Source of the DNA: an archaeon CG10_big_fil_rev_8_21_14_0_10_43_11 | GTDB lineage: Archaea; Nanobdellota; Nanobdellia; PEZQ01 | Assembly (NCBI GenBank): GCA_002763265.1 | Contig: PEZQ01000008.1 | Coordinates: 37,788-82,427, forward strand | Reading direction: 5' to 3' | DNA: 44,640 nt | In this document: one piece after another, positions 21,533-31,840 of the stretch | Layout of the letters: the number at the start of each line of letters is the position of its first letter | Position numbering within the stretch: position 1 is the first letter of the stretch | Made by a program: the position numbers and the translations under genes | Notes under the pieces: model-generated | The model's database searches: none | What the model was told of the DNA's origin: nothing | Seen by the model: only the letters and a program-made list of their open reading frames with translations

Positions 21533-21608
21533 AAAAAATGAAAAAGAATAAGCGCCCAAGCCAGAATTCCACCGCACCTTTTTTAGAAAAAAAGCTGCAC
21601 CAAAAAAG
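21533..21608 (-). repeat. tRNA-3'-end mini-element behind tRNA-Asp, with att-like copy of the tRNA 3' end
   Basis: Two parts, read in tRNA orientation. Positions 21608-21566 form a hairpin element containing GGTGCAGC, T-run, CT, A-run, GGTGCGGTGGAAT; it is nearly identical to the element behind tRNA-Thr. Positions 21568-21533 hold a copy of the end of tRNA-Asp plus its downstream flank: the 25 nt at 21533-21557 equal those at 21665-21689 exactly, and a further 11 nt of T-stem match at 7 positions. The distance between the copies is 132 bp. The layout is that of a short insertion bounded by att-like repeats. Confidence 0.8.
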
Positions 21609-28283: not shown

Positions 28284-28340
28284 CGCCCGGGGAGAGATTC
28301 CACCGCACCTTTTTTAGGAAAAAAAAGCTGCACCAAAAAA
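28284..28340 (-). repeat. tRNA-3'-end mini-element behind tRNA-Thr, with copy of the tRNA 3' end
   Basis: Read in tRNA orientation, 28340-28297 is the same hairpin element as behind tRNA-Asp (about 41 of 44 positions identical by eye), with arms CTTTTTT and AAAAAAG and the flanks GGTGCAG and GGTGCGGTGG. It is followed at 28299-28284 by AATCTCTCCCCGGGCG, a copy of the tRNA-Thr 3' end AATCTCTCCCGGGGCT (28366-28351) with few changes. The spacing between the two is 67 bp. The copy begins in the T-loop. Confidence 0.8.
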
Positions 28341-28350
28341 AAAGAAAAAG

Positions 28351-28424
28351 AGCCCCGGGAGAGATTTGAACTCTCGACCTCTGCCTTACCAAGGCAGCGC
28401 TCCGCCGAACTGAGCTACCGAGGC
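28351..28424 (-). tRNA. tRNA-Thr (GGT)
   Basis: The 74-nt gene folds well: acceptor GCCTCGG pairs with CCGGGGC (one T-G pair), anticodon loop TTGGTAA within CTGCC/GGCAG, and T-arm GAGAG-TTCAAAT-CTCTC. The discriminator base is T and CCA is not encoded. No intron is seen. A pyrimidine-rich tract and the mini-element follow within a few bases. Confidence 0.96.
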
Positions 28425-30031: not shown

Positions 30032-30115
30032 GCGGGGGTGGCTGAGCGGTCAAAAGCGCAGGACTTAAGATCCTGTGGGTTAGTCCCTTCGAGGGTTCAA
30101 ATCCCTTCCCCCGCA
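30032..30115 (+). tRNA. tRNA-Leu (TAA)
   Basis: This is a class II tRNA of 84 nt: acceptor GCGGGGG pairs with CCCCCGC, the anticodon loop is CTTAAGA within CAGGA/TCCTG, a long variable arm (TGGGTTAGTCCC) is present, and the T-arm is GAGGG-TTCAAAT-CCCTT. The discriminator is A and CCA is not encoded. A TATA box TTTTTAAAAG lies about 27 nt upstream. A hairpin element of the tRNA-associated family follows 56 nt downstream. Confidence 0.96.
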
Positions 30116-30170
30116 CATATTTTTTTTACTTGACATAAAAAACCTTGGAAAAAAAGAAAGAAGAATACTG

Positions 30171-30216
30171 TTTTTTGGTACCTGCTTCTTTTTCTAAAAA
30201 AAGGCGCGGTGCAACT
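30171..30216 (+). repeat. Divergent tRNA-associated hairpin element behind tRNA-Leu
   Basis: The sequence begins TTTTTTGGTACCTGCTTC and continues with a T-run, CT, A-run and GGCGCGGTGCAACT. It aligns over its full length with the elements behind tRNA-Asp and tRNA-Thr and shares their inverted T/A arms, with one mismatch in the stem. No copy of the tRNA-Leu 3' end is visible after it. The rest of 30116-30333 contains no gene that I can support. Confidence 0.65.
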
Positions 30217-31673: not shown

Positions 31674-31748
31674 GCCCTTGTCGTCTAGTTCGGCCAAGGA
31701 TTCCGGACTTTCAATCCGGAGACCCGGGTTCAAATCCCGGCGAGGGCA
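31674..31748 (+). tRNA. tRNA-Glu (TTC)
   Basis: The 75-nt gene folds as a cloverleaf: acceptor GCCCTTG pairs with CGAGGGC, anticodon loop CTTTCAA within CCGGA/TCCGG, T-arm CCGGG-TTCAAAT-CCCGG. The discriminator is A and CCA is not encoded. A TATA-like CCTTTTAAATGC lies about 27-35 nt upstream. A mini-element with a copy of the gene's 3' end follows. Confidence 0.96.
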
Positions 31749-31767
31749 CTTTTTCACTTTCTTTTTC

Positions 31768-31840
31768 TTTTGGTACAGCTTTTCTTTTAGCAAAAGAAAA
31801 GGTGTTGTGAAATTCAGGCAAGGGCACTTTCTTTTTCTTG
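31768..31840 (+). repeat. tRNA-3'-end mini-element behind tRNA-Glu, with copy of the tRNA 3' end and flank
   Basis: The element starts TTTTGGTACAGC and contains a perfect 10-bp hairpin: CTTTTCTTTT at 31779-31788, a 3-nt loop, and AAAAGAAAAG at 31792-31801, then GTGTTGTGAAATT. A copy of the tRNA 3' end follows at 31810-31827: 15 of 18 positions match the segment at 31732-31749 that runs from the T-loop through the discriminator. The CTTTCTTTTTCTT flank is also repeated. The distance between copies is 78 bp. Confidence 0.8.

Follow-up and report, generated by a model that had tools for sequence, protein, structure and literature searches.

Short non-coding hairpins that recur through genomes, some of them in RNA genes, include REP/RAYT palindromes, Rickettsia palindromic elements and MITEs. 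In archaea, transposition of tRNA introns is known in the Thermoproteales (Fujishima et al. 2010, cited in excerpts of PMC4090602 and PMC4033280), by a mechanism given there as still unknown (PMC4090602), and introns in 16S rRNA are dealt with in PMC4496867, likewise in excerpt. BHB introns and short palindromic repeats cover the parts of the element described here; titles and partial abstracts of the open-licence PMC literature yielded neither a description of this hairpin family nor one of the combination. The hairpin behind the tRNA-Glu gene considered here is best read as belonging to a hairpin element that spreads and that has kin among the tRNA introns of sister lineages.

The window, i.e. 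the whole stretch of 44,640 nucleotides of archaeal DNA that was analysed, holds four tRNA genes. The tRNA-Glu locus has the following features:

31674..31749, plus strand: intact tRNA-Glu(ttc) (ARAGORN; Rfam tRNA match 31674-31748)
31757..31771, plus strand: T/C-rich tract CTTTCTTTTTCTTTT, immediately 5' of the element, with copy 1 of the flank repeat
31772..31806, plus strand: hairpin core GGTACAGC-TTTTCTTTT-AGC-AAAAGAAAAG-GTGTT, with the mismatch G31778/G31802
31810..31826, plus strand: partial copy of the tRNA-Glu 3' end, beginning in the T-loop (direct-repeat search)
31827..31839, plus strand: copy 2 of the flank repeat CTTTCTTTTTCTT

The hairpin, the copied tRNA end and the repeated flank that the initial annotation placed here are all present. 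Positions 31810-31827 agree with the tRNA-Glu end (31732-31749) at 15 of 18 positions, and CTTTCTTTTTCTT occurs exactly at 31757-31769 and again at 31827-31839. Across an AGC loop, CTTTTCTTTT (31779-31788) pairs at every position with AAAAGAAAAG (31792-31801), as expected of the 10-bp hairpin first described, but the true helix is longer: in the folds it continues past the G-G mismatch 31778/31802 with A31777-T31803, C31776-G31804 and A31775-T31805. This longer helix with its fixed mismatch, common to the copies, had been overlooked, as had the same element within the tRNA genes of relatives. The motif GGTACAGC (31772-31779) is not confined to the Glu element but is found also in the Thr-tgt, Thr-cgt and Glu-ctc elements. 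An Rfam scan of the window at the gathering score matches the four tRNAs only and assigns the element to no known family. Recurrence excludes chance: 12 tRNAs of the own genome carry the element, and 56 of 378 related genomes contain it.

The remaining tRNA loci of the window have the features below, R1 being a model built from 13 cores of the own genome:

21684..21759, minus strand: tRNA-Asp(gtc) (ARAGORN)
21574..21601, minus strand: element core behind tRNA-Asp (GGTGCAGC...GGTGC; R1 model)
21533..21568, minus strand: partial copy of the tRNA-Asp 3' end and trailer
28350..28424, minus strand: tRNA-Thr(ggt) (ARAGORN)
28305..28334, minus strand: element core behind tRNA-Thr (GGTGCAGC...GGTGC; R1 model)
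28284..28299, minus strand: partial copy of the tRNA-Thr 3' end
30032..30116, plus strand: tRNA-Leu(taa) (ARAGORN)
about 30177..30211, plus strand: decayed element behind tRNA-Leu (by eye; below the R1 listing at E<=1)

At the tRNA-Asp locus, GGGCGCTTATTCTTTTTCATTTTTT at 21557-21533 is an exact repeat of 21689-21665. As tRNA-Leu has a decayed copy, four of the four window tRNAs carry the element.

The own genome (1.0 Mb) contains 40 tRNA-model matches, 39 of them above the cut-off. Reading all 40 downstream regions with a relaxed pattern gives an element on the sense strand in 12 cases (Lys-ttt, Lys-ctt, three Thr, two Glu, Asp, Gln-ctg, Arg-tcg, Arg-cct and the tRNA of locus L072), and the same 40 matches have no antisense, intragenic or upstream (<=100 nt) copy. 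These 12 tRNAs hold 13 downstream copies; a 14th (L006/L293) lies away from tRNAs with its own flank duplicated. R1 recovers 14 copies at E<=1e-6, the Glu core scoring 2.2e-12 as a member of the model itself. Decayed versions stand behind Leu-taa and Val-tac (by eye). The window copy is no intron, as the 12 carrier tRNAs of this genome have the element downstream and none is interrupted by it. The repeat at Lys-ttt is exact over 28 bp. Locus L072 (G000:C6:44524-44630) is an intron-containing tRNA, of inconsistent isotype in ARAGORN (Ser or Ile), followed by two tandem elements. Both bear a tRNA-Lys-type 3' end that mismatches the T-stem of their host tRNA, so this unit appears to have moved or been exchanged.

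The element measures about 30-45 bp, is non-coding and follows the consensus GGT-NN-A-G-C-(T/C arm)-loop-(A/G arm)-G-G-T-N'N'. The G-G mismatch is invariant in 13 of 13 own copies; the structure may therefore be recognised, beyond a mere perfecting by template switching. Covariation, proposed earlier as a check on the stem, is strongly positive when plain shuffling serves as the null. The 13 own copies give 14 double-sided cells versus 3.4 after shuffling, with GC/AU/CG at one NN pair, CG/AU/GC at the other and no breaks; shifting the outer pairing by three columns leaves 7 double-sided cells versus 14 for the adopted pairing. Among 130 distinct rows from relatives, in an alignment fitted to the structure, 265 double-sided cells stand against 87 when shuffled; one NN pair has 78 double changes and a single unpaired cell, the next 71 and 1. 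With NN unconstrained, a search pattern has 106 distinct matches in own and relatives' loci, and in 103 NN is complementary to N'N' (shuffled mean 18.5, maximum 31), the relatives' loci being model-found, so that weakly paired copies are possibly under-represented. The same pattern matches once, without complementarity, in 1.6 Mb of unrelated loci. What the initial annotation read as a compensatory C/G change in the Glu arms, and as a sign of selection on the stem, is real; the change recurs at the same pair in Glu-ctc, Gln-ctg and L006, and in Thr-tgt it sits one pair further out. Collectively, this indicates either that the stem matters, as claimed, or that it arises by templated copying instead.

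Which molecule is constrained can be judged from the arms of the pattern matches, where 524 pairs are Watson-Crick, 5 are mismatched and only 1 is G-U. This near-absence of G-U suggests constraint or copying at the DNA level rather than RNA selection. As single-stranded DNA, the fold of the Glu region is beaten by 1 of 200 shuffles (z -2.74); as RNA it is ordinary (z -0.46). These values bear on the reading of the element as an RNA hairpin that does a job in the trailer of the tRNA (a terminator, a processing signal or a stable small RNA) and is under selection for RNA structure. Archaeal terminators have a T-rich tract, and one lies directly 3' of the tRNA; the strong covariation and the recurrence at 12 tRNAs also fit an RNA role. 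Yet 27 of the 39 own tRNA genes lack the element and the Leu and Val versions have decayed, either orientation occurs at the tRNA 3' ends of relatives, no purpose is apparent for the piece of tRNA end that goes with the element, and neither the pairing counts nor the RNA fold is what such selection would leave. This explanation is improbable. Since the orientation relative to the host gene varies, the RNAs differ among copies, and 'processed RNA' or 'terminator', two of the three roles first proposed, find no support as a common function. The third, 'recombination site', comes nearest, given duplicated target flanks at many unrelated loci, and the earlier interpretation is in this sense partly supported.

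Direct repeats of the upstream sequence were sought at >=13/16 identity, starting <=6 nt from the right end. The test covers 130 copies (150 less 19 whose right end was unlocated and 1 with a short flank) and replaces a whole-alignment test in which 12 of 149 copies exceeded the 99% line and similar tRNAs spoiled the control. Twenty-two of the 130 pass, against 2 for reversed upstream sequence, and 108 fail this strict test; most copies within tRNAs are without a repeat. In the own genome 9 of 14 pass. Repeats are exact in L280 and L309, exact save one base in L303, and vary in size, the extremes being about 14 bp in L387 and about 58 bp in L425; they accompany protein-gene and intergenic copies as well (L323, L344, L367, L392 and L293). 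In L425 (G089:C28), the roughly 58 bp repeated around the hairpin are joined on the right by an extra 14-nt stretch. Six pyrimidines immediately precede the left end in 93 of the 106 pattern matches, and the run falls within the repeat in L303, L309, L280 and L287. The element therefore seems to enter just after such a tract, although the sequence 5' of GGT is often similar to the left arm and may in part be the element's own. Dispersed homologous copies with an inverted repeat are present, as in MITEs, and the duplications vary in length instead of being fixed, which is unusual for a transposase and counts against the mobile reading.

The repeats might also be taken for the attL and attR of a tyrosine-integrase attachment site, running from the T-loop to the 3' end and left behind after loss of most of an integrated element. 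Comparison by eye of 14 tRNAs with an element, some of it decayed, places the start of the repeat in the T-loop in 13 cases, and the tRNA 3' terminus figures as an integrase target in excerpts of PMC3293823. Against this stand a hairpin found at many tRNAs, at protein-gene edges and inside RNAs, repeats unrelated to tRNA, the lack of either cargo or integrase between them, and the downstream copy of L072 that matches a different tRNA. Such an origin is very unlikely.

Beyond the own genome, R1 at E<=0.01 matches 17 of 56 genomes (own included). R2 matches 56 of 378 genomes of the class at E<=1e-4 (own included), in 48 of 248 genera, and 57 of 371 of the phylum (own included). The two samples overlap, and every genome in the phylum listing belongs to this class. 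Family f8 is rich in the element, G037 alone having 61 matches at E<=0.1. Sites are diverse. Two copies interrupt other archaeal RNA genes, one of them antisense in 16S rRNA (L414) and the other sense in RNase P RNA (L428, G128:C25). Further copies lie beside protein genes (L323, L417 and L368, by eye) and at tRNA 5' ends with repeats there too (L308, L314 and L328). At tRNA 3' ends of relatives both orientations occur, with antisense copies directly behind the gene in L358-L361 and L389. Tandem arrays or units are found in L072, L309, L315, L371 and L425. Within one genus G011 has a copy at tRNA-Thr and G021 one at tRNA-Trp, a difference that may reflect incomplete assembly.

Several loci deserve separate mention. 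In L417 (G037:C19) and L368 (G029:C1), the element stops right at the start codon of an spt4-like gene; the site is common to two genera of one family and may be old or functional. L371 (G045:C60) has a tandem array of the element with a 34-bp period at 477-611, upstream of a tRNA-like sequence. Two G011 contigs (C8 and C23; L303 and L370) have the same element at or close to their ends, in one case behind tRNA-Thr; a tandem copy has probably broken the assembly there. Finally, a loose DNA pattern hits at least 118 stretches in public genomes and 81 in viral contigs; these hits were set aside as chance because, among the matches listed, 0 of 199 had a same-strand tRNA <=250 nt upstream.

Relatives, family f8 among them, also carry the element inside tRNA genes, antisense to the tRNA, at T-loop, D-loop and anticodon-loop positions (as read) and up to three times per gene. 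When the antisense element is cut out by brute force, 43 of the 73 clusters chosen yield a tRNA that reads across the junctions, versus 0 of 73 on the other strand and 0 of 138 at shifted places. The clusters were formed from 120 matches hand-chosen among 231. Loci that overlapped were counted once, and no use was made of weak rows, of the echo that a palindrome gives on the other strand, or of copies known to lie outside tRNAs; because rows were selected, 43 of 73 is a biased rate. The copies thus interrupt tRNAs whose genes are restored by their removal, as archaeal BHB introns do. Eight hand-picked precursors, viewed for a putative BHB motif at the exon-intron junctions, are predicted to fold mostly into an exon helix, internal loops and an intron helix.

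With introns in view, the extragenic copies could be debris derived from them, no mobile element being involved: template switching, unequal recombination or gene conversion, all by way of host repair, would then have copied introns next to other genes and yielded tandem duplications that bear a hairpin. The variable length of the direct repeats, the tandem units of L072, L315, L309 and L425 and the 34-bp array of L371 agree with this, as does the right end of the 3' copies, which corresponds to the 5' side of the intron in relatives; nor does any mobilising gene (RT, Y1 or Cas1) track the family. However, 0 of the 14 own copies lie inside a tRNA, so no intron donor is visible in this genome, and long-range jumps would be required regardless for the copies that border protein genes or lie in RNase P RNA. 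We regard this account as unlikely, although it deserves some weight.

The search for a mobiliser compared 30 element-bearing with 20 element-free genomes. Reverse transcriptase (4/30 versus 2/20), Y1 transposase (4/30 versus 4/20) and Cas1 (1/30 versus 3/20) do not track the element, and all three are missing from the element-rich drafts G008, G037, G053 and G045. Membership in REP/RAYT was rejected on the Y1 (TnpA-REP) count. A resident reverse transcriptase copying intron RNA primed by the T-tract would fit the ends of the element and was set aside, the enzyme being absent from the element-rich drafts. The own genome has a profile-tested cas1 outside the window (G000:C8:18037-18834 plus flanks, L079 and L080), near cas2-like and cas4-like ORFs and the end of a larger ORF resembling a type V effector (by eye). 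On this basis a short hairpin might have been integrated by Cas1-Cas2 as a prespacer, with duplication of a target resembling a repeat, insert and repeat being of CRISPR-like size. The distribution of Cas1 speaks against such integration, the repeat length varies, and the inserts are a single homologous family rather than diverse spacers, which with the Cas1 count also discards membership in a CRISPR array; the proposal is scarcely credible.

On balance, the Glu element is probably, by a modest measure, a copy of a short, non-autonomous mobile hairpin of small-genome archaea, whose movement and splicing we infer. Entry would take place next to a run of pyrimidines, for instance the T-tract that follows a tRNA, and would duplicate 16-60 bp of adjoining sequence, so that the gene at the edge stays whole while a partial copy remains on the far side. 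At the edge of a gene, a copy would survive thanks to this duplication, which spares one intact version of the gene end. Within a tRNA, the sole surviving orientation would be that whose RNA the archaeal splicing endonuclease can excise, and the element would persist as an intron; antisense copies would survive there because they can be spliced. For the entry itself, a nicked T-tract may prime on the A-rich complement of the element by a template switch, the template being either DNA or intron RNA. This would account for a left end that is fixed, a right end immediately beyond N'N' and repeats of varying length.

It is tempting to go further and propose, tentatively and at somewhat less than even confidence, an archaeal counterpart of introners: a spreading DNA hairpin of ~30-45 bp that inserts at pyrimidine tracts and RNA-gene loops, duplicates its target, becomes an intron dependent on the splicing endonuclease when antisense in tRNA or rRNA, and is the source of many tRNA introns of the class. 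The element may then help to explain the spread of archaeal tRNA introns. As the same hairpin occurs between genes, with its flanks duplicated, and also as an intron, one family opens both insertion and intron to joint study. A dinucleotide that is nearly always complementary, G-U pairs being all but absent, hints strongly at a mechanism that works on DNA or by copying. In practice, tRNA finders can overlook genes interrupted several times in this way.

Among known systems, the REP/RAYT palindromes, Rickettsia palindromes and MITEs differ in that the present element has no Y1 association, a site linked to a T-tract and long direct repeats. IStrons and eukaryotic introners resemble it as mobile insertions tolerated thanks to splicing, whereas here the insert has ~30-45 bp, neither ribozyme nor transposase, and an implied BHB-type splicing by the host endonuclease. 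The BHB introns of Thermoproteales, as excerpted, are alike in being short and homologous at several tRNA positions, several per gene; unlike them, the present family belongs to another archaeal group, has a fixed hairpin signature with a G-G mismatch, and includes extragenic copies in both orientations with duplicated flanks. The GC clusters of yeast mitochondria (GC42, excerpts of PMC4478555) are likewise ~40-bp palindromic, non-coding mobile DNA with putative target duplications, mergers and an unsettled amplification mechanism, but their flanking repeats are AG or ACT versus about 14-58 bp here and, as described there, they have no intron role. Closest in logic is the model for the disrupted tRNA-Thr of Caldiarchaeum (excerpts of PMC3293823), which also ties the gain of tRNA introns to a mobile element at tRNA ends; it requires a recombinase-coding insertion, whereas the present element is non-coding.
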